From Echinometra lucunter (Eukaryota; Echinodermata; Echinoidea; Camarodonta; Echinometridae): DNA of 64,000 nt. Shown piece after piece: positions 912 through 63,546 of this stretch (position 1 is its first letter; each line of letters opens with the position of its first letter). The position numbers and the translations under genes are program-made. The notes under the pieces are model-generated. The model saw nothing but the letters and a program-made list of their open reading frames with translations, did not search any database and was not told the origin of the DNA. The stretch lies in assembly GCA_029962745.1 (NCBI GenBank), contig CM057156.1, positions 34,185-98,184 on the forward strand. The letters are read 5' to 3'.

Positions 912-1922
912 TCAAATATCATTGGTGACTTCGACTACTCGCAGAGATGTATAACTTGATACCGTTACATCTTCGGAGATGTGGGCTTTACATTCGATTA
1001 GCAGGGATTGGTCACTATCTTGTATGTTTACAAGAGACATAACTTTATTGTTTTTGATGAGACGCTCTTGACTAACCAAGGGAGCACTTCCATTAACGCT
1101 TACATTCCAGGAGATCTCAGGAGAATAATTCTCATTACCAGATGTACAGACGAACGATGCAATGGAACCAAAAGGCACTTCTTTAATGAAGGGGTCTACT
1201 CTTACTAGTCCGGGTGTATTCCCTCCAATACATGGTGCGTTTATGGTTATAGAAGCATCGCTGTCTCTCATACATCTGCAAATGATAGTCGGAGTATCAC
1301 TGGACTCAATACGACTGATAATTCGATTTGGGAATCTGAGGTCAACATTAATTATTTCACTGTTTCTACTGTCAAAGTAAGCCTCACCTGGCTGATGATG
1401 GATCCAGGAACAAGCCACTTCATATTTTTGGTTCTGTTCTGATCCTAGAGAAGAAAGAAGATTTAAATGGGAACTTGCAGAATCTTGTATTGACGAAATG
1501 GTAACCATTGCCGTCCCAAGCGGTATGAATCTTCTACGAGATCCATAGTCATAGCCACATTCATAAACCCCAGCCTCCGTTGACAAGTCAATGGACTTGA
1601 TAAGAAGCGTATATATTTGTCGAGACTGGTCAATAACTACTTGGTAGTTACTTGAATCTACATCGTACCTTTCAGCGGGGTATATGTAATCATTTCTACT
1701 GATATATCGCCGACGTAAAGGTTCAATAAAATAGGTCCAAAATAATGTCTTTTCATTGTCATTATTTAAATCGCAAGTTAATGTCACTCTATCACCTTCC
1801 ACTACAGTCTGATTTTGTGGTCCAACTTCCAGAAATATAGCACACGACACTAATGGACATAAGAGATATATCCAAAGGACGGAGACAATTCCAGAATGCA
1901 ATAAAGCTTTGATGAAAGCCAT
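912..1922 (-). CDS. class A Ig-domain protein, no membrane anchor
   Basis: Encodes about 336 residues in one exon. The frame extends to 1928, but that codon is GTG; the ATG at 1922 matches the start shared with the plus-strand paralogues. Residues 1-27 are a signal peptide (hydrophobic core, ending near VSC). D1 (about 30-130) is a V-set-like Ig domain with Cys50, an FWTY tryptophan and the YECGY cysteine near 122. D2 (about 135-235) carries the FPNRIISR signature; D3 (about 240-330) has FVCTSG and an SWNV tryptophan. It stops right after the D3 end (VVEV...), exactly where paralogues continue into stalk, transmembrane helix and tail. It is either a secreted decoy-like receptor or a 3'-truncated copy. 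The frame is clean over 1 kb and the 5' flank is intact, so expression is plausible. Confidence 0.72.
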   Translation of the reverse strand: MAFIKALLHSGIVSVLWIYLLCPLVSCAIFLEVGPQNQTVVEGDRVTLTCDLNNDNEKTLFWTYFIEPLRRRYISRNDYIYPAERYDVDSSNYQVVIDQSRQIYTLLIKSIDLSTEAGVYECGYDYGSRRRFIPLGTAMVTISSIQDSASSHLNLLSSLGSEQNQKYEVACSWIHHQPGEAYFDSRNSEIINVDLRFPNRIISRIESSDTPTIICRCMRDSDASITINAPCIGGNTPGLVRVDPFIKEVPFGSIASFVCTSGNENYSPEISWNVSVNGSAPLVSQERLIKNNKVMSLVNIQDSDQSLLIECKAHISEDVTVSSYTSLRVVEVTNDI

Positions 1923-2160
1923 GTCCACTATTTGTAGTTTAACCGATATCGTATCAGCAAAGAATTGTCAGCTGCACACGAAGATATTTCAATTATTAAA
2001 CGTTTCCATCCAATGTGTTAAACTATTTCAAAGGACTATCTGCAATTATGTCACTTTATCACCATCTGCAGTCATATTTCGAGGTTCTTTTTCAAGAGTG
2101 GAAGTAAAGTCATTAATGACGATACGGATAAATCATTAAACGATAAACCTGCCAATGTTT
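1923..2160 (-). promoter_or_regulatory. conserved class A 5' flank
   Basis: This stretch is kept at the same place upstream of the class A copies at 8955, 23032 and, in the fragment, 401-545. It is the probable 5' UTR/promoter region. No convincing TATA box was seen on the minus strand, so the role rests on position and on conservation across paralogues, which simple recent duplication could also explain. Confidence 0.4.
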
Positions 2161-4969: not shown

Positions 4970-6262
4970 TCAAGGACCGGTAATATTCGAAGAAGGATTA
5001 AGGTTAAAAGTAGGATGTTCAATATTGAAGATATATCGATTGTCTAGGTGATAGGGGTCATCATCTGTAGCTTCAGTTGTTGAGACCCCGTTATTTGAGC
5101 ATTCAACTGTTCTTATGGGACCAATTTCTAAACCTCGCTCAGCTAAAATGGTAGAATTCATTTCAGAGGTCTCTGCTGATAGTGCCGTTGAAGCATCCGT
5201 ATTGCTTTCTAGAATGTCCTCTGTTAAGGGTAGGTGATCTACGCGCCTCTGGGACATATCGATATAAGCACCAAGTCTGTCGTCTTCGATCATGTCGAGA
5301 TCATATGTCAAAGTGCGTGGATTGAATAAACCTACCGTCTCTTGAGTCACTGATGGATTAGTATGGATATCAGCTTTGATCACATTTCTTGACCGTGGAA
5401 TGTCATACGCAGTGTGCTGCATAGGATGATCTTTTATCTTAGGTAATGGTCTTGAGGATAGATCCATCTTTAGTAGAGGCCGTTGATCCATGTCTGATGG
5501 GTACATGGATGTTGTCTGTCCCCGAGTAGGCCACAACATCTTCTTTTGTTGATTTTTGTTGGGGACTTCTTCATCTATTGTTTCATATAAGGGCCCTTCT
5601 GACTGTTGTGCATGTCCTGCTTTGATGGTGCAGCCACCTGATTCCATAGTACCAGGAGATCTAATGCCCGACTGGTGTATCTTTGCACTATAGGTATGGG
5701 AATCCGGAGACACTATCTGTAGCTCTTCTGTATCTCTTGGCATCATCCCTACCACTTCCCCAGACTCTCTATCGCTCAGGACATCCCTCCTTTTGTCTTC
5801 AGCTGATATATCAAGAGTAACCTTGCTGTTCCGTTTGAATTTACGGAGGAAGTTGATTCTTATAAGAAGGACAGTAGGTATCGATATGATGACAATGCCT
5901 GCAAATGTAAAAAGAATGGCAAATGGAAGAGGTGATTTGGTCGATTCAGAAGGCCATGTTCCTGGATCGCTTGTTGGATCCGTTTCAATTAAGTCTTCTG
6001 TTCCAGCCGATGTGTTGTCAGTTATTTGACTGGTCTGACGCTCCTCAGATGAGGTTGGGAGTTTCATGGTTGTCAACTTTACTGCAGGTCGTGTTTCAGT
6101 AATATTGTTTTGATACGCTGTAGATTCGACTGTTTGAAGTGATCTCCTTTCCGTCATTTGACTTGTTTCACCCTTATCTGATGGGGTTGTGAGGTTAAAA
6201 GTTGTCTCCTCGATGATTCGAATAAGACCATAACTAGACACATTTCGATTTCCAGGAAACCG
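4970..6262 (-). pseudogene. 5'-truncated class B receptor with alpha tail
   Basis: The open minus-strand frame covers the last strand of a class B D3 (GNRN..SYGLIRII), a Thr/Ser/Pro-rich stalk, a transmembrane helix (plus-strand 5853-5925) and a cytoplasmic tail of about 300 residues. The tail shows HTYSAKI, LYETIDEE, TAYDIP, the PI3K-type YIDM and a terminal NRYIFNIEH block, closely matching 25754-27605. Homology stops at about 6262 and the upstream frame soon meets a stop. There is no ATG before the stalk (the codon at 6241 is GTG), so signal peptide and Ig domains are missing. It could serve as a terminal exon only if an undetected upstream exon exists; the paralogues have none, so a truncated copy is likelier. 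Confidence 0.7.
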
Positions 6263-6839
6263 AAAAAAAGACCCACGAAACCCTAAAACAAAGGGTTGTC
6301 ATGATTGTTGTGACCAAACTATGAACTTTGTGACAGTAATTATCTATTTCCCATAAATTTGAAGTATTATTCCTTGAAATGATACCCTAATAGCATTAAT
6401 CCATTTACGCTTCACCGAGCAACTTTCTTGTTTCCAAAATGGCATGTCTGAATCCCTTTACGCAAAATTTGGGTAAAAACGTGAACATGTTAGTATCACA
6501 TGCAAACCAGGGCTCCGATGCTTAAACTTAACATTGATCGTAATTTTGCCATCAATGGTAAGTTTCCATGGAAACCTTGAACTTTTATTGGCTGTTGAGC
6601 AATTTTTTCGTCTGGCCTAAAACTGCCTAGAACTTCTCTGCACATACAGTTGAAACAGAAGGTTCATCCCAAGGGGACAGTCAACTTCATTGCTGTGCAT
6701 ACGCGGGTCCAAAAAAAAAAAAAAAAAAAGAAAACGAAAAGAAAAGACATCCACATGAACAGCGTGATTTTCGCTGGTTAAGGCGCTTTACTCGCATGGC
6801 GCAATCTAGAAAAAGAGTTTGTTTCTCAAGTTGAGAGAA
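6263..6839. other. intergenic, no gene seen
   Basis: Unique-looking AT-rich DNA with a long A-run near 6711-6730. No receptor homology was seen between the truncated class B copy and the repeat that follows. Confidence 0.5.
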
Positions 6840-7292: not shown

Positions 7293-8955
7293 CTAAACCT
7301 GTTTCATTTTGACAATGTTTGACTGTTTGACACGACTCTTGGTGAGTACGTTTCTTGTGATCAGACTTTTAATAACTCCTGAAGTGACAGATTCAACTGG
7401 AAAACAACGTAACCTCGGACCGGCATATTCTATTGCTGTAAATGTGTGAATCAGAAGAAATCGCCATTGGCGATTCATTGCTTCTCTCTTCATTGCATCC
7501 CTCAACGCAACCTCTCTTCCGCCTTCTGACAAGGATGACGATCGTGGCGACAAAGGCTACGATGAGGAAGACGAGTGTTATCACCACAACTAAAGCTATT
7601 CTCCTGCCACGTGCTGTACCGGGGTGAACAGGTTTCGTGAGTTCCATTATGCTATTTTCAGTCATAGGTCTGTCAGTTGTCCGATTTGTCTCACTCTCTC
7701 CAGGGGGTCTTCGAGAGGGAGGCGTTGTGACTTCGAGTATTCGTAGAGATGCATAACTTGATTCCGTCACGTCTTCGGAGATGTGGACTTCACCTTCGAT
7801 TAGCAGATTTTCGTCATCGTCTTGTGCATTCGCAATTGTCATAACTTTATTGTTTTTGATGAGACGCACTTGACTAACAAAGGGAGCACTTCCATTAACT
7901 CTAACATCCAAGGATATCTTAGGAGAATAATTCTGATTAACAGGTGTACAGACGAACGATGCATTGGAACCAATAGTCAATTTCCAGTGAAGGGGTCTAG
8001 TCTTACTAGTCCAGGTGTATTATCTCCAATACATATTACATTTATGGTTATAGAAGCATCGCCGTCTCGCATGATTCTGTAAATAATAGTCGGAGTATCC
8101 AAGGACTCAATACGACTGATGATGCTCTTTAGGAATCTGAAGTCAACATCAACTGTTTCACCGTTGCTATTGTCAAAGTAAGCCTCACCTGGTTGACTGT
8201 GGGTCCAGGAACCGGCTACTTCAATTTTTTGGTTTAGTTATGTTGCTAATGAAATAAGGCGGTTGAGACGGCAACTGAGAGATTCAGCAATTGGTGTCCA
8301 GTCAGTCCGCAGGTCCACAAAAAGTGGCTTCTTTCACGTAACTGGTATGCATGAACGGAACAGGCTCTGCATATTAATATGAGTTAGAACCTGTCAGAAC
8401 ACCACTTTCATTTTGGCCCTTGTTGCTCTAATACTTTATCAAATTTGATGTTTTTGATATTTATGTAAAGATGGATAATCAGTCTCTCATGCCATGTGTT
8501 TAGATTTAATGAAAAATTTGAAGAGGTGAAATTGTTGATCTAAAAAAACGATACAAAAATGATTTTTTCGCCTGCCAAAAGTTGCCATTTTGTAAGGCAT
8601 TTTGTACTTGAGCCCTCATAATTTTTACATGACCACAAAGCTGAATATCTATGCTTCATGAAAATACCAATTTTAACACATAATGCAATTTAATCGGGTC
8701 AAGAGCACACTTTACACAGACCAAGTGCAATTATCAGCCCAAAAACCATAAATACTGCTCTGTGATTGGTCTATTCAGACCACACACTCATCCTGGAATC
8801 CTAACGGTCACTTGCTGAGTCACTGAAGGTCAAATTAATGTCACTCTATCACCTTCCACTAAACATGTTAAAGTCTGATTTTGTGGTTCAACGTCGAGAA
8901 ATGTAGCACATGATACTAATGGACATAAGAAATGCAACAAAACGGACAAAGATAA
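7293..8955 (-). pseudogene. class A receptor pseudogene with alpha-type membrane region
   Basis: From right to left: signal-peptide and early D1 remnant (8832-8955), an unrelated block replacing the rest of D1 (about 8297-8831), D2 (about 7990-8296), D3, stalk, a transmembrane helix (plus-strand 7540-7615) and the first part of an alpha tail with a HIYSNRI motif. At least one base is missing near 7975-7985 between D2 and D3, and the tail frame is lost after about 7393 although homology to 17600-17710 continues to about 7293. The D3-to-tail stretch is still open for 196 codons. Damage at three points makes this a clear pseudogene. Confidence 0.85.
8297..8831. other. foreign block replacing D1 of the pseudogene
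   Basis: This stretch of about 535 bases has no similarity I can see to the receptors. It sits where late D1 should be. No inverted termini or clean target duplication were found, so replacement by recombination is as likely as transposition. Confidence 0.5.
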
Positions 8956-16861: not shown

Positions 16862-18131
16862 TTATGAATTTCCTTTGATATAAAGAACCGGTAACATTCG
16901 AGAAGGGCTGATGTTAAAAATAGGATGTTCAATATTGGAGATATATCGATTGTCTAGTTGTGAGGGGTCATCCGAATCATCTATACTTTCAGGTAATGAA
17001 ACCCCGTTATTGGAACATTTCTCTATGTGATTTATTTCTGTACCTCGCTCAGCTAAAAATATGGTCGAATTCATTTCAGAGGTCTCTCCAGAAACTGCCA
17101 GTGGAGCATCGGTGGTGTTTTTTAGAGTGTCCCCTGATAAGGGTACGTGATCTACGGCTCTTTTGGACATATCAATATAATCATCAGATTTGTTGTCTTC
17201 AAAATCATATGTCCAGGTGTGAGGATTTAATAAACTCACCGTCTCTCGAGTCAAAAGTTGATTGATATGGATATCGGCTGTTATAACATTCCTTGACGGT
17301 GGAATGTAGTCATATTTAGTGACTGAATTCTTTGGACACTGTGGCAAGGGTCTGTTGTGCAGATCAATAGCCTTAGAGGGTACAGCCCATTGATTCATAT
17401 TGGACGGACAATTCGATGACATCTGTTCTAGTGTATGGGTCGACTCCAGGTGTTTTTTGTCTTGCCTAGAGACGCCTGTCTTCGTCCTCTCTACATATGC
17501 ATTTGAAGTAAAGGGTTCATCCGTTATTTTTTCATATAATGAAGAATCTATGCCTTGCCTTTCCAAATCATGCAAATGGGGAGGTTTCTGCCTAGGGCTT
17601 TCTTGTTTTAAACCTGTTTCAGTTTGACATGATTCTTGGTGAGTGCCTTGCTTGTGATCAGATTCTAACTCCTGACGAGAATCCGAAATAATACAAACTA
17701 AACTTACGTCGGACCGGTATATTCTATTGCTGTAAGTGTGTGAATCAGAGGAAATCGCCATTGGCGATTCATTGCTTCTCTCTTCATTACACTCCTCAAG
17801 AGAACCTCTCTTCCGCCCCCTGACAAGGATGATGATGGTGGCGGCAAAGGCTGCGATGAGGAAGACGAGTGTTATTACCACAACTAAAGCTATTCTCCTG
17901 CCACGTGCTGTACCGGGGTGAACAGCTTTCGTGAGTTCCATTACGCTATTTTCAGTCGTTGGTCTGCCAGTTGTCCGATTTGACTGACTCTCTCCGGGGG
18001 GTCTTCGAGAGGGAGGTGTTGTGACTTCGACTATTCGCATAGATGCATAACTTGATACCGTCACGTCTTCCGAGATGTGGACTTTACATTCAACTAGAAC
18101 GTATTGGTCACTATCTTGTGCTTTTATAATA
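16862..18131 (-). pseudogene. 3' half of a class A/alpha receptor split by a transposon
   Basis: The minus-strand open frame starts at the transposon edge in mid-D3 (..QDSDQYVLVEC..), then runs through an SRRPPGESQSNRTT stalk, a transmembrane helix (plus-strand 17826-17903) and a tail of roughly 320 residues. Tail motifs are HTYSNRIYRS, SLYEKI (fits the S/I/V/LxYxxI ITIM pattern), YDYIPPSRN, the PI3K-type YIDM and NRYISNIEH. A missing base near the end replaces the SNITGP-type terminus of its paralogues with a slightly longer one. The 5' half is at 22138-23032 and both halves are otherwise open, so disruption looks recent. A transcript starting in the transposon arm could still make a membrane-anchored stub, but nothing shows that it does. 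Confidence 0.85.
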
Positions 18132-19066
18132 GCAGCAATAGTGGGCCCCCTGGAAGGTGTTAATTGGTTACTTCCGGTAAACAATACGGAAGCGGAAATG
18201 AGTTGATGAGTTATCCTTCCGGTCTTGGAAGTTGTTAATGAGGGTGTGTCCATCCGGAGGATGATAGATGGGGGTGGGAGGTGACACATTGGGCCCACCA
18301 CTGATGGTGGGCCTTTCCTGAGGGGCTGCCAACATATGAAACATTTTCAGGAGCGAGAGGGGAGGAGCAACCTGAGCATGCATGCCTGTGTTGCCAATGC
18401 ACATTTATACAGTTGACCAACGGGAATGGGAGGATTTCGATAGGGGAAGTGACATCACCTTGTTGCACTACTAAAGCAGCACTAGCAGCTATTGGATGGA
18501 GGTAAATCATGGCAATGGCAGAAAAAACATATTGTATTGGGTATCAAGATTTGTATTTTGTATGTTTGTGTGTCAGTATGTGTTGTTGTTGTGTTTGTTT
18601 TTGCTACCTGTGATTGAAATCATGGTGCGTCTTTTTGATCGTATCTTGACTCTGTAGAACACTCTCCAAGTCATTTACCGATTGGAGTTTGTCTTTTACT
18701 TTGACCCATTCACATCGCCACTTTATTTAGACTCTCTCACAATGCTCTGTTATAATTCACCACTGGACTTTATCACATTTTCACAATGCCACTTTATTTG
18801 GACTCTCTCGCAACAGTGTCATACTCATCATTGGACTTCATTACACTTTCACAACTTCACTAGCACTCTATACATTGCCAACCCATTTTGCTCTGTGTTT
18901 TAGCGCCACGGACTTTGTCTCTAGGCCAATATCATTGAGCAGTTACCAGTCACATCCCCTTAGACCAATATGGGCACCACAGTCTAACGACATAATATTG
19001 CAGTTTAACGCCGTAACACTGTAGCACCATACATAAACGCCGTAACGCCGCAGATGGCATATTTTA
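18132..19066 (+). repeat. left inverted arm of the 4-kb transposon
   Basis: It pairs with 21203-22137 over its whole length. Its inner end contains repeats of a gccgtaacgccg-type word, as does the body near 19,460, the usual look of subterminal binding sites. Short open frames inside it are mirrored exactly in the other arm and are not genes. Confidence 0.88.
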
Positions 19067-19068
19067 TC

Positions 19069-19283
19069 TCATCGGAGAAGTGACTGTTGGTTCCAATGCA
19101 TCGTTCGTCTGTACATCTGGTAGTGAGAATTATTCTCCTGAGATCTCTTGGGAAGTAAGCGTTAATGGAAGTGCTCCATTTGTTAGTCAAGAGCGTCTAA
19201 AAAAAAACAATGAAGTTATGTCTATTATAAGCAGCAATAGTGGGCCCCCTGGAAGGTGTTAATTGGTTACTTCCGGTAAACAC
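19069..19283 (+). repeat. inverted copy of the host-transposon junction
   Basis: About 158 bases of receptor D3 sequence (19069-19227) are followed directly by about 55 bases of transposon tip (19228-19283). Together they are the reverse complement of 22083-22297, the true right-hand junction, with about one mismatch noticed in the host part. The host piece is coding sequence of the very gene that the element interrupts. Confidence 0.85.
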
Positions 19284-19372
19284 GCACGCACGCAGAAGAC
19301 GGTGTAACGCCGTCTTCTGCCCTCGCACGGCGTTTTTCTTTCACAGTGCAACGCCGTCTTCTGCGTGCGTGC
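19284..19372. repeat. GC-rich hairpin
   Basis: Arms 19284-19302 and 19354-19372 are exact reverse complements (gcacgcacgcagaagacgg and its complement). A third partial copy of the arm (ccgtcttctgc) lies between them at 19310-19320. It begins right where the copied transposon tip ends. Confidence 0.85.
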
Positions 19373-19578
19373 AGACATTTCAAGGATTCCAGCACTGGTG
19401 ATGCTTGGCGGTGTGTCGAACGCGACATGATACCTGCGTGTATGGATATGTCTTATGCGGCGTTACGGCGTTAAAGTACGGCGTTACGATGATAAAAACA
19501 TGCGCAAAATGACAAACGATATATCATAACGGATTAGTCGATTTGCATCATTTGCAATCTTGGTATCATCGAGACAAC

Positions 19579-19695
19579 ATGAATACATTGTGTACATTTG
19601 ATTTGTCCAATCGTTACAGCTGTTCATTTTGCGATAAGACGTATAGTCGCAAGTTCGACATGAAGAGGCATGAACAAATGTGCATCATAAAATGA
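19579..19695 (+). CDS. short C2H2 zinc-finger ORF of the transposon
   Basis: Encodes 38 residues with one classical finger: CSFC, a DKTYSRKFDMKR core, then H and C (C2HC spacing). Its TGA stop overlaps the ATG of the next ORF as ATGA. The two frames were probably one protein before a one-base shift, which would make this the DNA-binding N-terminus of the acidic protein. It could equally be a real two-ORF layout. The function inside the element is unknown. Confidence 0.5.
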   Translation: MNTLCTFDLSNRYSCSFCDKTYSRKFDMKRHEQMCIIK

Positions 19696-20282
19696 AAGAG
19701 AATAAATATGGAAATGAGGATTCCAGCATTGATGATGAAGCTAGTGAAGCAAATTATCCATCTGAACCGCCGTTTAAAAAGCAAAGGGTTGAAGAATCTA
19801 GCAACGACGATGATGATGCTGAAACCAGTGATCCAGAAAATGAAGGAGAGGATGATTTGTCAAATTCTGAGGTACCTGGTACGGAAGACCCTGAAGACAA
19901 TCCAGCTTATCAGGAATGGCTTGAACAAGCCATGGAAGACACCAAGGAGTTGAGGAATGAAAAATACCAAAAATACATCTCCCAGGGTATGGACGAAGAC
20001 GAGGCTAAAGAAAAGGCTCATGTGAAAGTTCTATGGACCGTCAAACGGAACTTTTTTGATCTTTACTCTCAGTTCTTACAGGAGAGCTTGCATCTTGAAG
20101 AAGATGACACCAACATTGAAATTATGACTGATCTGACAGAGAAAGTAAAAAATGGTATGGAATTTCCAAAAGCCGTGCGGAGAGTTTTAGTCAAACATGG
20201 TACAAAGTTTGAGGGTTTATTCCAGTATCAGGAAGAGGATGAAGATGATGGTGAAGAAGATACAGAGAGGGGTCAAAAGTAG
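19692..20282 (+). CDS. acidic hypothetical protein of the transposon
   Basis: Encodes 196 residues from the ATG at 19692; an in-frame GTG at 19680 is not taken as the start. Residues 1-70 are very acidic with a basic FKKQR patch that could be a nuclear signal. A helical middle follows, with NPAYQEWLEQAM, YQKYISQGMDEDEAKEKAH and FFDLYSQFLQ. Then comes a block with PKAVRRVLVKHG..FEGLFQY, and the end is again acidic. I recognise no named domain. With the overlapping zinc finger it looks like an accessory or regulatory protein of a large DNA transposon. No transposase or integrase catalytic residues are visible. The long clean frame within a young insertion suggests it was recently functional. 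Confidence 0.6.
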   Translation: MKENKYGNEDSSIDDEASEANYPSEPPFKKQRVEESSNDDDDAETSDPENEGEDDLSNSEVPGTEDPEDNPAYQEWLEQAMEDTKELRNEKYQKYISQGMDEDEAKEKAHVKVLWTVKRNFFDLYSQFLQESLHLEEDDTNIEIMTDLTEKVKNGMEFPKAVRRVLVKHGTKFEGLFQYQEEDEDDGEEDTERGQK

Positions 20283-20340
20283 TGATAACTATTCAAAGCA
20301 TGACATCTTTTATAGCCAAGTAATATACAATGTGTATGTA

Positions 20341-20640
20341 GTATACCGGGCATGTCGGCTCAATTGAGATAGCGTCCACCTCATAAACGGGAGGTCGCGG
20401 GTTCGATCCCTGGCCGAGTCATACCAAAGGCTTAAAGAATGGGACCTTCTGCCTTCTAGCCAGGCACTCGACATACAAGAATGGAGATAATAACATATTA
20501 TGTTATACAGGGCCCGCTGGGAGAGCAGTTGAAAAAAACTGAAGCCGCTACCCTTGGTAAATAAGACGCTATTATTGTTATCATTATTATTAGTAGTAGT
20601 AGCATCATCATTAATATCAATATTAATATTATTATGGGGT
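20341..20640 (+). repeat. tRNA-derived SINE inside the transposon
   Basis: The head is tRNA-like: an A-box-like ggctcaattgagatag, an anticodon-loop-like ctcataa and a B-box ggttcgatccc. A non-tRNA body and an ATT-rich tail (about 20,575-20,637) follow. This is the standard layout of an RNA polymerase III-derived SINE. Secondary structure is too degraded for a working tRNA, and the extra body argues against one. Confidence 0.75.
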
Positions 20641-21202
20641 AAAATGTAGTCTATTTCATCATGTCATTTGCTTGAGCGTAAGCTCGCTGGGGGGGGGGGG
20701 GGGGGGGGTCTTGTAGAAATCTCTGTTATATGGTGTTATGTTTGAAGCTTAACTTATACCTCACCTGTACATTATGCATTTTTACACCAAGACTGACATA
20801 CACTGTACTTGCAATAAAGTTGAAAAGAAAACACTACATACCTCACTTCCGTTTCTCTACGATGTTGTGTTATTTTGATTGCTGTGTGTCTTCCATACTA
20901 TTAATTACCATAGATCTACATGTACCTAAGTTTTGATCAAACCAACAATATACCCTTCATTACTTTAATAATACAGTCTCATAAAATACATCTACAAGAC
21001 CTCATATGACTCGGATCTAAAATAGTTACGGGAAGTCCCAACATGACGTCACAGAGCTAGAAAAAACAAACAAAACAATACAAAAAAAAAAGTCATACAA
21101 TGTGTGCACGGCAACATATTACAGTCACCACGTCATCACACATTGACCCGAGGCGATATACATGTAAAAACAAAAAAATTTGAACATGAAGATAAAAATG
21201 CT
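20641..21202. other. transposon body, non-coding remainder
   Basis: It holds a long G-run (about 20,690-20,708) and AT-rich sequence up to the right arm. No gene supported. Confidence 0.5.
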
Positions 21203-27605: not shown

Positions 27606-27750
27606 ACTTTTGATTAGACCCCGGTCTCTGACTCCAGAAAGACATCGGCATGATCGGTCTTCCTTCAATGGAAGCTGTATAGTCAATAAGCTGTCGAATC
27701 CCCGTTTCCAGTTTATTATTCTTTTTCATAGACAAAACGCCTTTTCAGAG

Positions 27751-37028: not shown

Positions 37029-37120
37029 GTCACCGTTGTTTACACTGGGCCACATTGTCCACGATCTCCACAATTTTGATAAGAGAATGGTGATGAGCGT
37101 GGGTTGAACACGATTCTATA

Positions 37121-41700: not shown

Positions 41701-41869
41701 GAACAAAAAGACAGGGATGTCCTTTGAAGTTCCCAGATGTGTGAGGGAGAGCATGTCTTCACCCCTCCCTATTTAAGCATATTTTAGAGTGACTTCGACA
41801 GGTCAGGCACATTTTACCCCCAACCCCATTCATTTGTCTTTCTTGTCATTGAACATTGGTTTCATTGCT
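38757..41869. other. non-coding DNA, left part duplicated
   Basis: 38,757-39,180 and 40,100-40,515 are paralogous to class B upstream DNA and to 31,464-32,990. It includes a CT-rich tract (39,100-39,360), a C-run (39,580-39,593) and a GT/TA tract (39,650-39,730). From about 40,520 to the receptor stop at 41,870 I see only AT-rich unique sequence. Confidence 0.55.
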
Positions 41870-46933: not shown

Positions 46934-47801
46934 TGTCGTAGTTCGGATGAGGTCACTCAGATGAGTACAAGGGCAACTGATTCGTGTACAGTGTACAGTG
47001 TACTTGTCTTTTATTCATCCAGCAGAAAATCAGACAAAGACAAAAAACAAACCCCAGGATCAACACCCACTCGTCACGTGATCTTGAACCAACACTCCAA
47101 CAACACACTGGCTGGACTCAATTCCAGTGTAGGAATTATACTTGTACTGCACACTTCGGAAGATCTGAAGTGTTGAGAACCACCAAAACGAACTTTGGCT
47201 TTCACCCCACAAAATGTGATACTACGCTGATACAAGCTCAAGAAGGAATGAATCCCGATACCTCCCCCGATGCTACATGTATTCTGCTCACATCACCAAC
47301 CTAACCGTATCACTATGAATTAATGCGCCTTGCATCATTAAGACCTTCAATCTCTCACCTTCAACAATCTTTCTAGATACCTGTTTACAATGTACCTTTT
47401 AACTAATTTGCATATCTTCCGACCATTAATCTGTTAACAAAATGAAAGTGCCTACTCTGTTACTAGGCAGAACTAATTTATCTTTTGCAGGAATATCGCA
47501 CACTGATTAGTCTTCATTCATGAACACAGGACAGAAGCCCAGCTGTAATTAACAAAATAGGAATCCAAAGAACCCTACACGGTGATTTGTTTTCATTCAC
47601 AAAAACTAGATGGATGCGATTGTTAGTCGTGTTTGACAAAACAAGGAATCCAACAACTTCGCAACCCAGATGACACGTCTTATTGAAAACTTTGCATAGC
47701 CAATTCCTCAAATTTCTTCTCAACTAAGAGCGAGCCAAATCGAGCTTCAAATATCTTTATCTATAGAAGAAAATACTCTGGCTAGAACTCAACTTTCCAC
47801 A
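46934..47801 (-). repeat. 3' LTR of the retrotransposon
   Basis: Closely similar to 51012-51883 along its whole length, with scattered substitutions and 1-2 base indels. Confidence 0.9.
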
Positions 47802-49139
47802 ATTTCCCTACTCAAGATAAAGTCGACCCGACTATAATATAGCGCATAATTCAATGTAATATGAGGTCGAATTATTCACTACTACAATCAATATTCAAAA
47901 TCACAACAAAGATTAGAAAGTATATTGTATCTATCTTCCAGTTCGCTGATTCAAAGAAAGAAATTAATATCTACCCTCTGGATGCTATTAAATCAAATAT
48001 GTCTTTTCAATTTCTTGATTATTCTCCAATCTTGATCAAGGTTCTGCCTTATTACTTCTTCAACATAATTTATGTAAGAAAAAAAAATCTTTCATTGAAC
48101 TTCTAACAGTAAAAAGTCCACTTATTTCTTGGAATGATTGAAATAATAAAACTAAACAATCCAGATTCAGCCAAATCAAACCTGATTAGCATGTTACAAT
48201 AATTCTTTTCCAAACTTCACTCATTTGTCAGCGAACTAAACAAGGTTTAGGATGAAATTACTGACCTCTTCAAATTTCAACCCAGCAATAAATTTGTATA
48301 AGATACGCATCTGTCACGAAGAACTGAAAGCAAGGAGTTATCTTGTCTTCTAATAAAAAATTGATCTCAAAATGTAGAATTTCAAACTTGAACTGAAAGT
48401 AAAAATCTTAATCCCTAATAGCAAATTAGGCTGAGAATCAAATTGTATTTGATTTTTTTTTTCTTCTATCCTGAGGACTAGAGACTACAGTTAATTTATT
48501 GAATCCTGTCAAAATTGAATGAGAATTACTGCTAGCCAATTATGTGTGTTTTAAGGATTAGATTAGTTTTTTTTTGTTTTGTTTTTTAGAATTAGAACAA
48601 AGGCAAATCTGGCTCAAAGAAACTAATATACACCAAGCAAGCCTTGCAAAAGAAATCCTATATAATGACATAGTCCAAATTTTCTTTTAGCAAAATTTGA
48701 CTCCCATATTCCTAAATGAAAAACTAAATCAGCTAGGCACTTGTAGCTCCAATAATTTTCACTAAATTAAGCTAGTTTGATTAAATCAGTCTCTAACGGG
48801 ATCAATTTTTCATGAAATAAGTAATAAATCCCCGAACAATCATACTGGACGACCAGTAACAGCTGAAGTCGGCAAACGATAGGGATTACGATTTTTTTCC
48901 ACGTGTGGATCTCGTGGAGCGTCTAACTTGTCTAGTCTCTGGGGTTTCAGAGTCACTACTGGTTAAATATAACCATATTGGTACATCATCATCATCATCA
49001 TCACTATCTGTATCATCAGTATCATCATGATGACTCTCTTCTATCTCATTCTCTGAATACCTGTCGATATCACTGGGTACTGGAAATACATCAATAGACT
49101 CTCCTTCTTGACGAGGAACAATTATTAATCATCGTCTAT
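47802..49139. other. retrotransposon interior downstream of integrase
   Basis: AT-rich with stops in all frames. A run of ATC/ATG trinucleotides lies near 48,986-49,030. A purine stretch next to the 3' LTR may be the remains of a polypurine tract. No envelope-like gene is supported. Confidence 0.5.
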
Positions 49140-50389
49140 TCACCCACTTCGATTTACCACCAAAACCTGGCCGTATCTGAAGAACATCATTCTCCTCTTT
49201 TTTGCAACGATCAAATAAAGAGAATCCTCATATTTGTTCTGCAACTTGTGACGCTCTGAAAAAGCATCACGGCGGAGTAACACTCGATCCCCTAGTTTCA
49301 AGACAGGAACATCTCCAGCCTCTTGTCTCTGCTCCTCTTTCAGTGCAGCTCTTTGCCGATCTACTACAATCTGATAAGCTCTTTCCATGAGCTTGTTTTG
49401 ATTTTCCACATAATCCTCACTCCAGGACAACTTTGATCTACTCAACAGTTGATCAATCGGCAACTGAGGACCTCGGCCGAACATCAGAAAATAGGGAGTG
49501 ACCCTAGTGACACGATGGGGGGGGGGGGGGGGGGGATAGTATTGTACCTGAAGACTATGTGTTTAATCAACTCTGGCCAACGCCTTCTTTGTTTAGGATT
49601 CAATGATCTCAGTAACCCACAAAGAGTTCGATTAAATCTCTCACACTGCCCATTACCTTGGGGGTAATATGCAGTGGTACGGGACTTCTTGATGTCATAT
49701 ATTTGACATAATTCTGCAAATGATCTTCCTTGATCGGAATGAATTCTACCGGGAATTCCATAACGGACAAACCACTCATCTCTTAAAATCTTTGCTACGG
49801 TTTATGCAGATTAATCGTGACGAGGAATTGCTTGTGCATACTTACTGAATACGTCAGTAAGTACCAAAACATCTTCATAACCTTGCTGTCCCTTGTCTAA
49901 CTTCAAAAAGTCCATCGCTAATACCTCCTAGGGTCGAAAAGCTACTAAATGTCAAGGAGAAGGACAAATAGTAGGAAGGGGTGGTTTCGATGTAACACAC
50001 CTAAAACATCTCTACACATACTCCTTCACAGTCTGAGACATACCCGGCCAATAACACCTCTCCTTCAGAAGATTCAAAGTACGATCTATCCCTTGATGAC
50101 CCCATTGATCATGCACGAGTTCCATCACAGTCTTCTTCAAAACTTCTGGAACTAACAGCTGTAGGGCCTTACCATGGACAGAATCTTCTACTTCACGGTA
50201 AAGAACATTTGCATGTTCTACATACCGAGACCATTCTCTCAACCAACCACTAACAAGATCAAACAGTTTCGGATCAATGAACTGACCCGGTTCCCAAACT
50301 CTCTTTTTCAAACATCTCACTTCTTGAAGTATAGGATCATTAGCTTGGAGAATTGCTATGTCTTCAAAACTATACGAAGGCAACATCAT
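49140..50389 (-). pseudogene. integrase region of the retrotransposon
   Basis: The minus strand shows, in order, an HHCC-type zinc-binding segment (50012-50389, with HDQWGHQGIDRTL), a DDE core (MDFLKLD, VLTDVFSKYA, HSDQG and YYPQGNGQ..E, about 49,560-49,950) and a C-terminal segment with LKLGDRVLLRR (49140-49484). Stop codons occur in the core near 49,805 and 49,930, and the G/C-run at 49,517-49,533 shifts the frame. Confidence 0.85.
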
Positions 50390-50760
50390 AGGAACCCAAC
50401 TATCTTCTTGGTCAATTGATTCACTAATTTACTAATCTCTTGAAACACAGACACTGGGGTAGTCTTTTTTACTTCATTTATCATCACAGCAACCTCGTCC
50501 ATACCCAATGGTCGTCTGCTTAGTGCATCTGCTGCTTTATTCGCAGAGCCAGGACGATATTTTACCTCAGTATGGTATGCTGCTAACTGCGCCACCCACC
50601 TAGTCTCTGTGGCTCCCAATTTAGCATTTCTCAAGTGTACTAGAGGGTTGTGGTCTGTGAAGACCTCACAGTGTTGGCCCTGAATACACGAACCAAATTT
50701 GTCCACTACAGCCCATTTAAGAGCAAGTAACTCCAACTTGAAGCTGTTGTCACTCTACCA
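50386..50760 (-). pseudogene. RNase H region of the retrotransposon
   Basis: ELLALKWAV, the VFTDHNPL motif, RWVAQLAAYH and the NKAADALSRRP end are the standard gypsy-type RNase H landmarks. The frame changes just before the zinc-binding part of integrase (50386-50389). Upstream it joins directly to non-coding leader, so everything N-terminal has been deleted. Confidence 0.88.
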
Positions 50761-51011
50761 ACGCTATCACTCTCTATGACGCTGTCATCGATGCAACCGT
50801 CAGACGCTCTCATCTCCCCGATCGTCCGACGCCGTCGTCACTGCAACCATCCGACGCTCTCGTCACTTTAGCCATCTGATGCCGTTGTCGTCGCACCAGC
50901 CGTCTGACGCCGTCGTCGTCGCACCAACCGTCTAACACCTCCCTCGTTGAACCTGGGGTTGTCCCTCATAATCAGCGCCTAATCCTGACCTATCCTGTGC
51001 GTGACGCCATT
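50761..51011. repeat. retrotransposon leader with GTC/CGAC-rich repeats
   Basis: Degenerate copies of a roughly 30-bp phrase containing ccgtctgacgccgtcgtc fill most of it. The putative primer-binding site adjoins the LTR. Confidence 0.6.
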
Positions 51012-51883
51012 TGTCGTAGTTCGGATTAGGTCACTCAGATGGGTACCAAGGCAACTGATTCATGTACAGTGTACAGTGTACTTGTCTTTTATTCATCCAA
51101 CAGAAAATCAGACAAAGACAAAAAACAAACCCCAGGATCAACACCCACTCGTCACGTGATCGTGAACCAACAATCCAACAACACACTGGCTGGACTCAAT
51201 TCCAGTGTAGGAATTATACTTGTACTGCACACTTCGGAAGATCTGAAGTGTTGAGAACCACCAAAAACGAACTTCGGCTTTCACCCAACAAAATGTGATA
51301 CTACGCTGATACAAGCTCAAGAAGGAATGATTCCTGATACCTCGCCCGATGCTACATGTATTCTGCTCACATCACCAACCTAACTGTAATCACTATGAAT
51401 TAATGCGCCTTGCATCATTAAGACCTTCAATCTCTCACCTTCAACAATCTTTCTAGATACCTATTTACGATGTACCTTTTAACTAATTTGCATATCTTCC
51501 GAACATTGATCTGTTAACAAAATGAAAGTGCCTACTCTGTTACTAGGCAGAACTAATTTATCTTTTGCAGGAATATCGCACACTGATTAGTCTTCATTCA
51601 TGAACACAGGACAGAAGCCCAGCTGTAATTTACAAAAAAGGAATCCAAAGAACCCTACACGGTGATTTGTTTTCATTCATAAAAACTAGATGGATGCGAT
51701 TTTTAGTCCTGTTTGACAAAACAAGGAATCCAACAACCTCGCAACCCAGATGACACGTCTTATTGAAAACTTTGCATAGCCAATTCCTAAAATTTCTTCT
51801 CAACCAAGAGCGAGCCAAATCGAGCTTCAAATATATCTTTATCTTTAGGAGAAAATACTCTGGCTAAAACTTAACTATCCACA
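51012..51883 (-). repeat. 5' LTR of the retrotransposon
   Basis: Pairs with 46934-47801. It starts tgtcgtagttcgga and ends tatccaca. Confidence 0.9.
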
Positions 51884-52583
51884 ATAGGAAGATCCCTAAA
51901 ATAAATTTGTGGCATATCTTTATCATTAAGTCACCGTAAATCATGCAAATGCCGTGGTCATAAGCCAAATAAAAACTTAGCATTTTGTTCCCTCTCTCCG
52001 CTCCCTCGCAAATGAGTAATGAAAGCAATCTTAACAATGGCAAAGTAGTAAACATGCTAAAGATAAGAAAAATTATATCTAAAATAATCCTTAAACGAGT
52101 ATTAAACAGAATGTACGGCTATACCAACTGCTCAAAACGCTCCTTTTCCTTCTTGTGTTCACTATTTGTAAGTGCCCCTTTTCACTAGTACCAGCCAACA
52201 CATTGAAAGACGCCTCGCCGCCCGCCGCCCCTACGTCGATGATAAATGATAGTGGTAATGATGTATTCTCATTTTTATCCCTGCCCTTCAAGAAAAAATA
52301 TTTTTGATCCAGAGTGGCTTTTAAAAAAAGAGTAACAGTGCAATGTTATGTGTTTTCAGTTTTTTGTTTTTGTTTTTTTCTTGTCACATATGCTTTAAAA
52401 GTCTGGATACAAATACAATAATACTCGTTTTAACTTCATACTAGTCTACTCTTCACCAGTGTAGTGTTATGTAATCTTACAGTTTGACAGCCTTTTGTTG
52501 TTGTTGTTGTTATATTATCATTTATAGGTCATTGACGTTATCAGCAACCAGAGGTGAGCGTAATGATTGCTGTAAAGGCCTGA

Positions 52584-54249: not shown

Positions 54250-56682
54250 ATGGCTTTCTTCAAAGTTTATTGGTATTCCGGATTTATCTCCGTCCTCGGG
54301 ATATATCTCTTATGTCCATTAGTGTCGTGTGTTATATTTCAGGAAGATGGACCACAAAATAAGACTGTAGTGGAAGGTGATAGAGTGGCATTAATTTGCG
54401 ATGTGAACAATGACAATGATAACACAATATTTTGGACCTATTTGATTGATCCTTTACATCGGCGATATATCAGTAGCAATGATTACATATACCCCACTGA
54501 AGGGTACGGTGTAGATTCAAGTAACTACAAAGTAGTTATTAACCAGTCTCAACAAATATATACGCTCGTTATCAAGTCCATTAACTTGTCAACGGAGGCT
54601 GGGATTTATGAATGTGGCTATGTATATGGATCTAGTAGCAGATTCACATCGCTTGCGACGGCAATGATTACCGTGTCACCTTTTCCTGAATCTCTCAGTT
54701 GCCATCTCAACCAACTTATTTCATTAGGAACAGAACAAAACCAAAACCAAAATTTTGAAGTAGCTTGTTCCTGGACCCACAGTCAGCCAGGTACAGCTTA
54801 CTTTGACGGTAGCAACGGTGAAACAATTGATGTTGACCTCAGATTCCCAAATCGAATCATCAGTCGTATTGAGTCCCGTGATACCCCGACCATCATTTGC
54901 AGATTTATTAGAGGCAGCGATGCTTTTATTACCATAAATGCACCATGCATTCGAGAAAATACACCCGGACTATTAAGAGTAAACCCCTTCATCGGAGAAG
55001 TGTCTGTTGGTTCCAATGCATCGTTCGTTTGCACTTCTGGTAATCAGAACTATTCTCCTGAGATTTCCTGGGATGTAAGTGTTAATGGAAGCGCTCCCTT
55101 TGTTAGTCAAGAGCGTCTAAAAAAAAACAATGAAGTTATGTCTATTATAAAAGTACAAGATAGTGACCAATACGTTCTAGTTGAATGTAAAGTCCACATC
55201 TCGGAAGACGTGACGGTATCAAGTTATGCATCTATGCGAATCGTTGAAGTCACAACGCCTCCCTCTCGAAGACCCCCCGGAGAGAGCCAGTCAAATCGGA
55301 CGACTGACATGACTGATAGACCAACAACTGAAAATGACGTCATCGAAATTACGACTCCTGTCCAACCTGATACAGGAGGTGGCTGGAAAATAGCTTTAGC
55401 TGTGATAATAACACTCGTCTTCATCATAGCAGCACTTGTCCTCATCATCGTCGTCCTTGTCATTAAGCGAAAAAGGGGATCTCTACGACGTAAGTACTCT
55501 GAAGGAAAGGCGCATACTTACGATGCGATTGAGCTCCAAAAGATTTCGCATACCAGGCACGATGGCAGCTCACAATTATATGCCCTTTCCTTCAAAGATA
55601 AGAAATCAAAGCGACATCTGAGTGACGGTTTCGACACCAACGAAATGGACGAAGGAAATTTCAAAGGCTCACTTTCGTCTTCTTGCGGCATGCTCAACTT
55701 GCAACCCGAGTCAACAGATGAGCAGGTCTACGCTGAACCTGACACCACCACTGAATCCGGAAATCAGCTCCAGAACAATTCAAGGCGTCTCTGCAACTCA
55801 ATGCCAATCCTGGACGCTAGCGAATACGAGACGATATCAGAGCCGAAAGCTCGATCAAAACAAATGGCAAAGACTTTGTCGACGTTGCCCATCAGCTCCA
55901 ATTGCAGCAGCCGTGGTGACCGAAGATGGACCTCACAGAGGATGAAGAAGGATGCTCCCTGGACACCTCCGATGTCAAGACACGCCACATCATTCCGAAA
56001 ACCAGGGGTCAAAGATCCTCACGCTGATAGTGACTATTACGCAGATTACGCAGACATCGAAGGCGTGGGTAGCAGGTCTTCTCGAAATACTCTCGATGAT
56101 GAAATCCTCGATACTTATCTTAGTAACATCCCGAGTTCCTCTAGCTCTTCTCTTCATAAGAACATGAAAAATAACAAGGCCACGTCACTCAACAGGGCCA
56201 TGTCATGTCGCCCTGGCCCACCAAAACCTCAACGTGGAAAATGCCAGTCCATGGGTATTCCAACTTACAGCACGATCAGTGACTACGAGATCATGAGCAA
56301 GCAAGTCAAACAAATCAACGAAGACGACAATGACTACGATGAGTGCGACCAAAGCGAGCCAAGTTTTCCGATGAGTAACTACGATCGACCGAGGAACCCG
56401 AGTCATGTTAAAACCGCGTACACCCTCCCAAGGCTTACTGAAGGAGCCACGGAGGTGATGATGAAGCAAGGGTATGGAAGAGAAGGACGAAAAGTAAAGA
56501 GTTTGGATGAGGGAGAGTACGAATTGATTGGTGATGAAGGAGGATTTCGTAAAAACTCGACTGAGGTTCCTAAATCTTCTCAGTATGCTGATATTGGTGA
56601 TACCATGAAGGTATATGCTTCAGTATTGGACAATGATGTCACTGCATCTGAATGGCATCAGGAAGACGACGACGATGACTAG
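54250..56682 (+). CDS. class A Ig receptor with long beta tail (beta receptor 1)
   Basis: Encodes 810 residues in one exon. The open frame reaches back to a GTG at 54226; the ATG at 54250 (aacATGg) is preferred because receptor 2 lacks the ATG at 54244. Layout: signal peptide 1-27; V-set D1 (Cys50, FWTY, Cys122 in YECGY); D2 about 137-240 with FPNRIISR; D3 245-340; stalk; transmembrane helix about 378-404, then KRKRG; tail of about 405 residues. Tail tyrosine motifs include TYDAIEL, LYALSF, VYAEP, SEYETI, YADI, YSTI, the PI3K-type YEIM, EYELI, SQYADI and VYASV; several fit SxYxxI. Compared with receptor 2, about 50 tail residues including a LYAKP motif are missing. One lost base turns the last tyrosine codon into TAG, removing six residues. 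I infer an SH2-recruiting, probably inhibitory or mixed receptor. Confidence 0.88.
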   Translation: MAFFKVYWYSGFISVLGIYLLCPLVSCVIFQEDGPQNKTVVEGDRVALICDVNNDNDNTIFWTYLIDPLHRRYISSNDYIYPTEGYGVDSSNYKVVINQSQQIYTLVIKSINLSTEAGIYECGYVYGSSSRFTSLATAMITVSPFPESLSCHLNQLISLGTEQNQNQNFEVACSWTHSQPGTAYFDGSNGETIDVDLRFPNRIISRIESRDTPTIICRFIRGSDAFITINAPCIRENTPGLLRVNPFIGEVSVGSNASFVCTSGNQNYSPEISWDVSVNGSAPFVSQERLKKNNEVMSIIKVQDSDQYVLVECKVHISEDVTVSSYASMRIVEVTTPPSRRPPGESQSNRTTDMTDRPTTENDVIEITTPVQPDTGGGWKIALAVIITLVFIIAALVLIIVVLVIKRKRGSLRRKYSEGKAHTYDAIELQKISHTRHDGSSQLYALSFKDKKSKRHLSDGFDTNEMDEGNFKGSLSSSCGMLNLQPESTDEQVYAEPDTTTESGNQLQNNSRRLCNSMPILDASEYETISEPKARSKQMAKTLSTLPISSNCSSRGDRRWTSQRMKKDAPWTPPMSRHATSFRKPGVKDPHADSDYYADYADIEGVGSRSSRNTLDDEILDTYLSNIPSSSSSSLHKNMKNNKATSLNRAMSCRPGPPKPQRGKCQSMGIPTYSTISDYEIMSKQVKQINEDDNDYDECDQSEPSFPMSNYDRPRNPSHVKTAYTLPRLTEGATEVMMKQGYGREGRKVKSLDEGEYELIGDEGGFRKNSTEVPKSSQYADIGDTMKVYASVLDNDVTASEWHQEDDDDD

Positions 56683-60945: not shown

Positions 60946-63546
60946 ATGGCTTTCGTCAAATATCATTTGTATTCCGGATTTATCTCCGTCCTTTGGATAT
61001 ATCTCTTATGTCCATTAGTGTCGTGCGTTATATTTCTGGAAGTTGGACCACAAAATCAGACTGTAGTGGAAGGTGATAGAGTGACATTAATTTGCGATGT
61101 GAACAATGACAATGATAACACAATATTTTGGACCTATTTGATCGAACCTTTACGTCGGCGATATATCAGTACCAATGATTACATATACCCCACTACAGGA
61201 TACGGTGTAGATTCAAGTAACTACCAAGTAGTTATTGATCAGTCTCGACAAATATATACGCTCGTTATCAAGTCCATCGAATTGTCAACGGAGGCTGGGA
61301 ATTATGAATGTGGGTATGAATATGGATCTGGTAGAAGATTCACACCGCTTGCGACGGCAACGATTACCGTGTCACCTATTCCTGAATCTCTCAGTTGCCA
61401 TCTCAACCGTCTTATTTCGTTAGGAACAGAACAAAACCGAAATTTTGAAGTAGCTTGTTCCTGGACCCACAGTCAGCTAGGTACAGCTTACTTTGACAAT
61501 AACAACGGTGAAACAATTGATGTTGACCTCAGATTCCCAAATCGCATCATCAGTCGTATTGAGTCCCTAGATACTCCGACTGTTATTTGCAGATTTATGA
61601 GAGACAGCGATCCTTCTGTAACCATAAATGCACCATGTATTGGAGATGATACACCCGGACTAGTAAGAGTAGACCCCTTCATAGGAGAAGTGACTCTTGG
61701 TTCCAATGCATCGTTCATTTGTACATCTGGTAATCAAAATTATTCTCCTGAGATTTCCTGGGATGTAAGTGTCAATGGAAGCGGTCCCTTTGTTATTCAA
61801 GAGCGTCTCATAAAAAACAATGAAGTTATGTCTATTATAAAGGTACAAGAGAGTGACCAATACGTTCTAGCTGAATGTAAAGTCCACATCTCGGAAGACG
61901 TGACGGTATCAAGTTATGCATCTATGCGAATTGTTGAAGTCACAACACCTCACTCTCGAAGACCTCCCGGAGAGAGTCAGTCAAATCGGACGACTGACAT
62001 GACTGATAGACCAACAACTGAAAATAGCGTCATCAAAATTACGAATCCTGTCCAACGTGGTACAGGAGGTGGCTGGAAAATAGCTTTAGCTGTGATAATA
62101 ATATTTGTCTTCATTATAGCAGCACTTGTCATCGCCATCGTCGTCCTTGTCAGAAAGCGAAAAAGGGGATCTCTACGACGTAAGTACTCTGAAGGAAAGG
62201 CGCATACTTACGATGCGATTGAGCTCCAAAAGATTCCGCATACGAGGCACGATGGCAGCTCACAATTATATGCCCTTTCCTTCAAAGATAAGAAATCAAA
62301 GCGACATCTGAGTGACGGTTTCGACGCCAAGGAAGTTGATGAAGGACATTTCAAAGGCTCATTTTCGTCTTCTTGCGGCATGCTAAACTTGCAACCTGAG
62401 TCAACAGATGAGCAGGTCTACGCTGAACCTGACACCACCACTGAATCTGGAAATCAGCTCCAGAACAATTCAAGGCGTCTCTGCAACTCAATGCCAATCC
62501 TGGACGCTAGCGAATACGAGACGATATCTGAGCCGAAAGCTCGATCAAAACAAATGGCAAAGACTTTGTCGACGTTGTCCATCAGCTCCAATCGCAGCAG
62601 CCGTGGTGACCGAAGATGGACCTCACAGAGGATGAAGAAGGATGCTCCCTGGACACCTCCGATGTCAAGACATGCCACATCATTCCGAAAACCAGGGGTC
62701 AAAGATCCTCACGCTGATAGTGACTATACGAAAATGACTATTGAGAATAAGGTCCCATCTGCTTCTGACATCACCAAATCACCAGGCAGAGTCCCACTTT
62801 ACGCTAAACCTGACAAGAAGAAGAAATCTCGGAGTAAGGAAATTTCGTCACATGACAATGACACGAATGGAGTTGAATGTAACATTGGTTCCGATTACGC
62901 AGACATCGAAGACGTGGGTAGCAGGTCTCGAAATACTATGGATGATGAATTCCTCGATACTTATCTTAGTAACATCCCGAGTTCCTTCAGTTCTTCTCTT
63001 CATAAGAACATGAAAAATAACAAGGCCACATCACTCAACAGGGCCATGTCATGTCGCCCTGGCCCACCAAAACCTCAACGTGGAAAATGCCAGTCCATGG
63101 GTATTCCAACTTACAGCACGATCAGTGACTACGAGATCATGAGCAAGCAAGTCAAACAAATCAACGAAGACAACAATGACTACGATGAGTGCGACCAAAG
63201 CGAGCCAAGTTTTCCGATGAGTAACTACGATCGACCGAGGAACTCGAGTCATGTTAGAACCGCGTACACCCTCCCAAGGCTTACTGAAGGAGCCACGGAG
63301 GTGATGATGAAGCAAGGGTATGGAAGAGAAGGACGAAGGGTAAAGAGTTTGGATCAGGGAGAGTATGAATTGATTGGTGATGAAGGAGGATTTCGTAAAA
63401 ACTCGACTGAGGTTCCTCAATCGCCCCAGTATGCTGATATTGGTGATACCATGAAGGTATATGCTTCAGTATTGGACAATGATGTCACTGCATCTGAATG
63501 GCATCAGGAAGACGACGACGATGACTACGACAGTGACTTTGATTAA
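60946..63546 (+). CDS. class A Ig receptor with full-length beta tail (beta receptor 2)
   Basis: Encodes 866 residues in one exon, the most complete member. The ATG at 60946 (aacATGg) is the first in frame; the frame reaches 60922 only via GTG and CTG codons. Layout: signal peptide 1-27; V-set D1 (Cys50, YECGYEYG); D2 with FPNRIISR; D3 with ICTSG and SWDV; Pro/Thr stalk; transmembrane helix about 377-403; tail of about 460 residues. The tail carries TYDAIEL, LYALSF, VYAEP, SEYETI, LYAKP followed by a lysine cluster, SDYADI, YSTI, YEIM, EYELI, QYADI and VYASV, and ends in an acidic DDDDDYDSDFD. SxYxxI sites suggest SHP-type phosphatase binding, YEIM suggests PI3K, and YxxP suggests Crk/Abl-type adaptors. 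These are inferences from motifs. Tandem neighbour of 54250-56682. Confidence 0.9.
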   Translation: MAFVKYHLYSGFISVLWIYLLCPLVSCVIFLEVGPQNQTVVEGDRVTLICDVNNDNDNTIFWTYLIEPLRRRYISTNDYIYPTTGYGVDSSNYQVVIDQSRQIYTLVIKSIELSTEAGNYECGYEYGSGRRFTPLATATITVSPIPESLSCHLNRLISLGTEQNRNFEVACSWTHSQLGTAYFDNNNGETIDVDLRFPNRIISRIESLDTPTVICRFMRDSDPSVTINAPCIGDDTPGLVRVDPFIGEVTLGSNASFICTSGNQNYSPEISWDVSVNGSGPFVIQERLIKNNEVMSIIKVQESDQYVLAECKVHISEDVTVSSYASMRIVEVTTPHSRRPPGESQSNRTTDMTDRPTTENSVIKITNPVQRGTGGGWKIALAVIIIFVFIIAALVIAIVVLVRKRKRGSLRRKYSEGKAHTYDAIELQKIPHTRHDGSSQLYALSFKDKKSKRHLSDGFDAKEVDEGHFKGSFSSSCGMLNLQPESTDEQVYAEPDTTTESGNQLQNNSRRLCNSMPILDASEYETISEPKARSKQMAKTLSTLSISSNRSSRGDRRWTSQRMKKDAPWTPPMSRHATSFRKPGVKDPHADSDYTKMTIENKVPSASDITKSPGRVPLYAKPDKKKKSRSKEISSHDNDTNGVECNIGSDYADIEDVGSRSRNTMDDEFLDTYLSNIPSSFSSSLHKNMKNNKATSLNRAMSCRPGPPKPQRGKCQSMGIPTYSTISDYEIMSKQVKQINEDNNDYDECDQSEPSFPMSNYDRPRNSSHVRTAYTLPRLTEGATEVMMKQGYGREGRRVKSLDQGEYELIGDEGGFRKNSTEVPQSPQYADIGDTMKVYASVLDNDVTASEWHQEDDDDDYDSDFD

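Follow-up and report, generated by a model that had tools for sequence, protein, structure and literature searches.

A 64,000-nucleotide stretch of the genome of the sea urchin Echinometra lucunter (GenBank assembly GCA_029962745.1, contig CM057156.1, positions 34,185 to 98,184 of the forward strand; hereafter the window) holds a cluster of immunoglobulin (Ig) receptor genes in which closely matched ectodomains are joined, within single open reading frames (ORFs), to cytoplasmic tails of apparently unrelated classes. The window, which contains no runs of N, was scanned for stop-to-stop frames of more than 150 amino acids and their translations, and the members were searched back against it with tblastn. 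The receptor frames are not fortuitous ORFs, since tblastn shows them to be homologous to one another and protein searches show homology to 11 database entries. They comprise three complete single-frame genes, one split gene, one nearly complete frameshifted gene and five remnants. The common plan is a signal peptide, three domains (D1, D2 and D3), a Ser/Thr stalk, one transmembrane (TM) helix and a tail. The gene w60 (60946-63546, forward strand, 866 amino acids) has this plan in full, with a V-like D1 and a class-A tail containing 19 tyrosines (tail classes are defined below). Upstream lies w54 (54250-56682, forward strand, 810 amino acids), whose class-A tail has 18 tyrosines and an internal deletion relative to that of w60; the two are tandem segmental duplicates, flanks included, and not separate retrocopies. 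The third complete gene, w41 (41870-44533, reverse strand, 887 amino acids), encodes D1-D2-D3 followed by a second D2'-D3' unit, a long Thr/Ser stalk and a short class-C tail with the motifs YALSFKDK and YAEP. A first-pass annotation of this DNA had described these long members as each reading in one open frame, and this holds: the frame runs from the signal peptide to the end of the tail in all three, and introns may still lie in the untranslated regions. The same annotation had joined 22138-23032 and 16862-18131 into a split gene, and these are indeed two halves of one gene on the reverse strand. The 5' half, w22 (22138-23032), encodes the signal peptide, D1, D2 and most of D3 and is 89% identical in DNA to w54 and w60; the 3' half, w16 (16862-18130), encodes the end of D3, the stalk, the TM helix and a class-B tail.

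Five partial or frameshifted copies had also been claimed, and tblastn places further copies, all on the reverse strand, as follows. The nearly complete w25 (25947-27605, 552 amino acids) has a signal-peptide-like start, a D2'-D3' unit without D1, a TM helix and a class-B tail; it is frameshifted near its 3' end, with the last part in another frame at 25791-25949. The 5'-truncated w4 (4970-6298) retains the end of D3', the stalk, the TM helix and a class-B tail, and the frameshifted w7 (7393-8297) retains D2, D3, the stalk, the TM helix and the start of a class-B tail, with a signal-peptide remnant standing apart at 8833-8949. An ectodomain-only copy, w1 (912-1967), runs from the signal peptide through D1-D3 to a stop directly after D3 and has no TM helix; it is possibly not a dead copy but one that encodes a soluble form. 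Two shorter remnants hold the end of D1 with part of D2 (92-389) and a piece of a D2' unit (36125-36376). Diverged duplications within 26740-43171, among 27-28, 36 and 42-43 kilobases, suggest older copying of the whole D2'-D3' block.

Protein searches, each of which scored about 8,000 candidates, returned the 11 relatives. Two carry species names (Lytechinus variegatus LOC121414882 and Lytechinus pictus LOC129261709) and nine are ENA records; individual relatives are referred to below by P numbers. The single-frame Ig receptor cluster of the first-pass annotation stands, and its proposed restriction to one lineage is likely, given that both named relatives among the 11 are sea urchins. The proteins have an Ig-fold ectodomain, a signal peptide and one TM helix, as Ig-superfamily membrane receptors do (helices were called by hydropathy and signal peptides by eye). 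D1 is predicted to be a V-like Ig domain: Pfam Ig_3 scores above its cut-off in 5 of 9 receptor ORFs scanned, and PDB sequence searches gave weak V-domain matches and no stronger PDB match. D2 was predicted in a fold model as a beta domain that Foldseek matches to the latter half of Fab chains; this comparison re-examines hits from the Foldseek list itself and indicates an Ig fold rather than kinship. Weak Ig matches to D3 were found by Pfam in P0006, P0008 and w25, and the D3 of w60 is poorly modelled. One relative, P0008 (L. pictus LOC129261709), lacks a TM helix between D3 and the tail, which might reflect faulty gene prediction or splicing to a soluble product.

The regions following the helix were compared by BLASTP, with P0010 placed by alignment and P0008 added later. 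Class A comprises w54, w60, P0002, P0004 and P0007, and class B comprises w16, w25, w4, w7, P0001, P0003, P0005 and P0010. The short class C contains w41 and P0008, whose best match is w41, and is kin to the start of the class-A tail; the P0006 tail matches neither class A nor class B. Classes A and B are, as far as BLASTP can tell, unrelated: the sole match between them at E < 0.01 links the class-B database protein P0005 to w60 (E = 0.005). This separation of A and C from B rules out a single tail common to all copies. Class-A tails contain 17-20 tyrosines and class-B tails fewer. The w60 tyrosines are preferentially retained: both P0002 and P0004 keep 15 of the 19, compared with 142 of 462 residues for the tail as a whole (p = 1.4e-5). 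Positions close to class-A tyrosines are also kept more often than others (50/131 vs 77/312, p = 0.006).

Motif enrichment was assessed against 2000 shuffles of the full class-A tails (n = 4) and of class-B tails (n = 5). Yxx[ILVMP] exceeds the shuffles in all four class-A tails and in none of the five class-B tails; in w60 there are 13 such sites vs a shuffle mean of 3.9. Within class A, YxxP is above chance in two of the four tails (p < 0.05) and YxxM likewise in two, while none of the five class-B tails tested has more ITIM-like, YxxM or YxxP sites than chance predicts. The sequence SEYETI occurs once in each full class-A tail and is conserved in 4/4, and the number of sites of the immunoreceptor tyrosine-based inhibitory motif (ITIM) type, taken as [ILVST]xYxx[ILV], is not above that in shuffles. 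The class-C tail of w41 has no SxYxxI and no YxxM. The tail with SxYxxI, YxxM and YxxP that the first-pass annotation had attributed to all members is therefore not common to them; in class A, YxxP and YxxM are above chance in half of the full tails, and the plain ITIM-type label, which is weak, narrows to one conserved SxYxxI site per full class-A tail, with such sites above chance in neither class. Class-B tails have features of their own, namely a conserved HxYSxKIYRS-like box and the sequence RPLP, found in 5 of 7 checked (w16, w25, w4, P0003 and P0005; w7 and P0001, whose tails are short, lack it) and in none of 5 class-A tails.

Ectodomain trees were built with 14 rows, which drew a long-branch warning for w41 and P0002, and with 10 rows, from which the distant w41, P0002, P0004 and P0006 were left out. 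Three clades were recovered: the window copies (tails A, A and B, together with the ectodomain-only copy), two Lytechinus proteins (tails B and C) and four ENA proteins (tails B, B, A and one unknown). The ectodomains are thus grouped in these trees by lineage and not by tail class. Class-B genes as an ectodomain lineage of their own were rejected, since joining the four tail-B rows costs 247 log-likelihood units (approximately unbiased (AU) test, p = 1.5e-6), and D1 alone and D2-D3 alone likewise reject such a clade. Even with classes A and C pooled, at least four tail-class changes are needed on eight rows. The class-B half-gene w16 resembles the class-A gene w60 up to the stalk and the class-B copy w7 beyond it, with informative sites divided 27:8 on one side and 3:33 on the other (permutation p = 0.0002; similar with w54 replacing w60). 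Past this breakpoint the A and B tails are unrelated. The site pattern marks a recombination point in the stalk of a class-B gene, and because each gene reads as a single frame the exchange of ectodomain and tail seems to be intra-exon. Near-identical ectodomains on different tails, one mark of paired receptors, are accordingly present in the cluster.

Between w54 and w60 differing sites number 79/1005 in the ectodomain, 42/1219 in the tail and 39/835 in the pooled flanks, and identity rises to 96-99% in some 250-column blocks. The ratio of nonsynonymous to synonymous divergence (dN/dS) is 1.15 in D1, 0.61 in D2, 0.27 in D3, near 1 in the stalk and TM helix and 0.36 in the tail. A D1 under relaxed or diversifying selection would fit these values.

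The split gene is interrupted at 18132-22137 by a 4-kilobase stretch whose arms, each about 935 bases long and inverted relative to each other (18132-19066 and 21203-22137), are identical at 934 of 936 aligned columns when the left arm is taken one base long. A perfect 8-base target duplication, TTATAATA, flanks it at 18124-18131 and 22138-22145. This target duplication and the inverted arms point to an inserted element rather than to a rearranged gene, and the recent insertion of this DNA element leaves the receptor gene broken in this assembly. Inside the element, at 19069-19230 (forward strand), the D3 stretch of the split gene itself recurs in inverted orientation, continuing into a copy of the element end to 19282 with 99% identity.

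Taken together, we favour, at a probability of about 60%, a reading in which these are germline-encoded single-frame type I receptors that work as a paired-receptor-like set, with a shared ectodomain and tails that differ in their outputs. It is built directly on the architecture, the two unrelated tail classes, the conservation of class-A tyrosines, the homogenised ectodomains and the recombination point. The fast-evolving ectodomain with its V-like D1 would bind a ligand, and binding would cluster the receptor; exchange between genes within the reading frame, by recombination or gene conversion, would keep neighbouring ectodomains alike while the cytoplasmic sides differ. Class A would serve as a docking tail: Src/Syk-type kinases would phosphorylate its many Yxx[ILVMP] sites, to which several SH2 proteins would then bind. 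By their motifs the expected partners would be Crk/Nck-like proteins for YxxP, PI3K for YxxM and SHP-like proteins for SEYETI. Class B may signal through its fewer tyrosines and the RPLP stretch, a plausible ligand for an SH3 domain. A single act of recognition could in this way feed into different outputs, and coelomocytes are a plausible setting for it. The recognition role proposed in the first-pass annotation is a reasonable expectation because of the V-like D1, the faster ectodomain and the tail swapping, and the support for likeness to paired receptors comes from structure and evolution and does not extend to the sign of signalling. More tentatively, and with the odds somewhat against so specific a claim, the cluster may be a paired-receptor system of the sea urchins' own, in which a single-exon V-type Ig cluster has its ectodomains homogenised in each species by intra-exon gene conversion and keeps old, unrelated tails, so that outputs differ without splicing. 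For the conversion-matched paired receptors of vertebrates, one proposed origin is the exploitation of inhibitory receptors by pathogens. If the reading is right, a convergent one-exon set in echinoderms would provide an independent test of why paired receptors arise, and members of the cluster would be candidate recognition receptors for coelomocytes.

Clustered V-type Ig receptors with one helix and tyrosine-motif tails are likewise known from the Alr genes of Hydractinia. The fester co-receptors of Botryllus (PMC12065747; this and the other papers cited are drawn on in excerpt) are similar in being clustered, with V-type Ig domains, one helix and tails bearing ITIM, hemi-ITAM (hemITAM) or core tyrosine motifs, but they also contain a sushi domain and can change motifs by alternative splicing, and no kinship with them is shown. 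In vertebrates, gene conversion keeps paired Ig receptors matched, examples being Siglec-11/16 and CEACAM1 with its relatives bearing an immunoreceptor tyrosine-based activation motif (ITAM), in which near-identical ectodomains sit on different tails and recombination occurs around the ligand-binding domain (PMC5701461, PMC2832619). Those receptors, however, have a separate exon for each domain and are described as signalling in opposition, through ITIM on one side and ITAM or adaptors on the other. Neither feature is seen in this cluster, and no sequence kinship is shown. The intronlessness that the first-pass annotation thought unusual stands as far as the single frames go, and it is less surprising because intronless genes are common in sea urchins, where 2482 were counted (PMC3155783), and because echinoderm kirrelL sets a precedent as an intronless Ig-domain membrane gene (PMC8903837). 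What does appear unusual is that single-frame genes carry matched ectodomains joined to tails that are unrelated. Such a tail-swapped family was not found described among the papers listed by the literature searches, which left most subscription journals uncovered, and it may be in print elsewhere, for example in surveys of immune genes of the purple sea urchin.

Several observations weigh against the paired-receptor-like reading. As regards signalling, an ITAM was found in none of 14 tails checked and a hemITAM-like site in two (w54 EGEYELI and P0006 DDGYIEI); the ITIM consensus is not enriched in class A (2 sites in w60 vs 0.7 in shuffles, p = 0.15); and class-A prolines are nearly as conserved as the tyrosines (19/26 vs 15/19 in P0002). 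A lysine was seen in one of 14 TM helices, the single case being the class-B ENA record P0003; a charged helix residue pairs some vertebrate receptors with ITAM adaptors (PMC2832619, in excerpt). As regards architecture, D2 alone and D3 alone of w60 have no Ig match in Pfam, and among the database proteins P0002, P0004 and P0009 begin in mid-D1, P0010 is without D2-D3 and P0008 is without a TM helix; frameshifts, gene-calling faults or introns may account for these incomplete forms. As regards exchange, w22 is counted as class B solely because its 3' half, w16, lies past the inserted element; apart from Lytechinus, it is sequence likeness that underlies the grouping by lineage; the groups in the AU test follow the tail classes, but the 14-row tree had been inspected before the test; and w7, the class-B comparison for the breakpoint, is decayed, so that its private changes could raise the left-hand count, yet they are few on the right-hand side. 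As regards rates, w54 and w60 diverge in the 5' flank alone (24/368) almost as much as in the ectodomain, the contrast between D1 alone and the flanks is not significant (p = 0.07), and six pairs of close copies in the window give D1 dN/dS values of 0.59 to 1.53, on small counts. Finally, w54 and w60 differ by 3-9% depending on region, and this pair may be uncollapsed alleles.

The genes might instead encode developmental adhesion receptors involved in the recognition of embryonic or skeletogenic cells, with tail variety tuning adhesion or fusion rather than immunity. Docking tails with YxxP and YxxM fit adhesion signalling too. Sea urchins have proteins of this general kind, as the excerpts describe: the intronless kirrelL is required for skeletogenic-cell fusion (PMC8903837), and Lv-IgTM of Lytechinus, a protein of skeletogenic cells with Ig and TM parts, regulates how the skeleton branches (PMC6768484). 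These are likened to the cluster by description only, however; kirrelL is a developmental fusion protein for which the excerpt describes no swapped-tail cluster, and a conserved developmental gene would not be expected to show many copies, decayed ones among them, together with a V-like D1 and exchange of ectodomains. We therefore regard adhesion as unlikely. Neutral turnover offers another account, in which unequal crossing-over in a tandem array mixes the tails without any selected link between shared ectodomain and outputs, and decayed copies, duplications and element insertions do portray an unstable array. Yet both tail classes persist in the database relatives, each of the three ectodomain clades keeps mixed tails, and class-A tyrosines are conserved beyond the tail average, which makes this account quite improbable to us.

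Part of the pattern could also be an artefact of assembly or of alleles, with false tandem duplicates and a hairpin read giving rise to the inverted repeat. The near-identical blocks of w54 and w60 (96-99%) and the near-perfect match of the inverted arms (934/936 columns) are what such faults would produce. Against this, the inverted element has its perfect 8-base target duplication, w54 and w60 show 79 differences over 1005 ectodomain sites, and a class-A and a class-B gene could hardly be alleles of one another; we give the artefact very little credence.

ARAGORN found no transfer RNA gene in the window. A frame at 19674-20282 within the inserted element encodes an acidic product of 202 amino acids with no Pfam match above cut-off. 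Between w41 and w54, at 46934-51885, two direct repeats of about 870 bases that are 96% identical flank reading frames resembling a Gypsy-type integrase and RNase H, and we take this stretch, from its motifs, to be probably a long terminal repeat retrotransposon.

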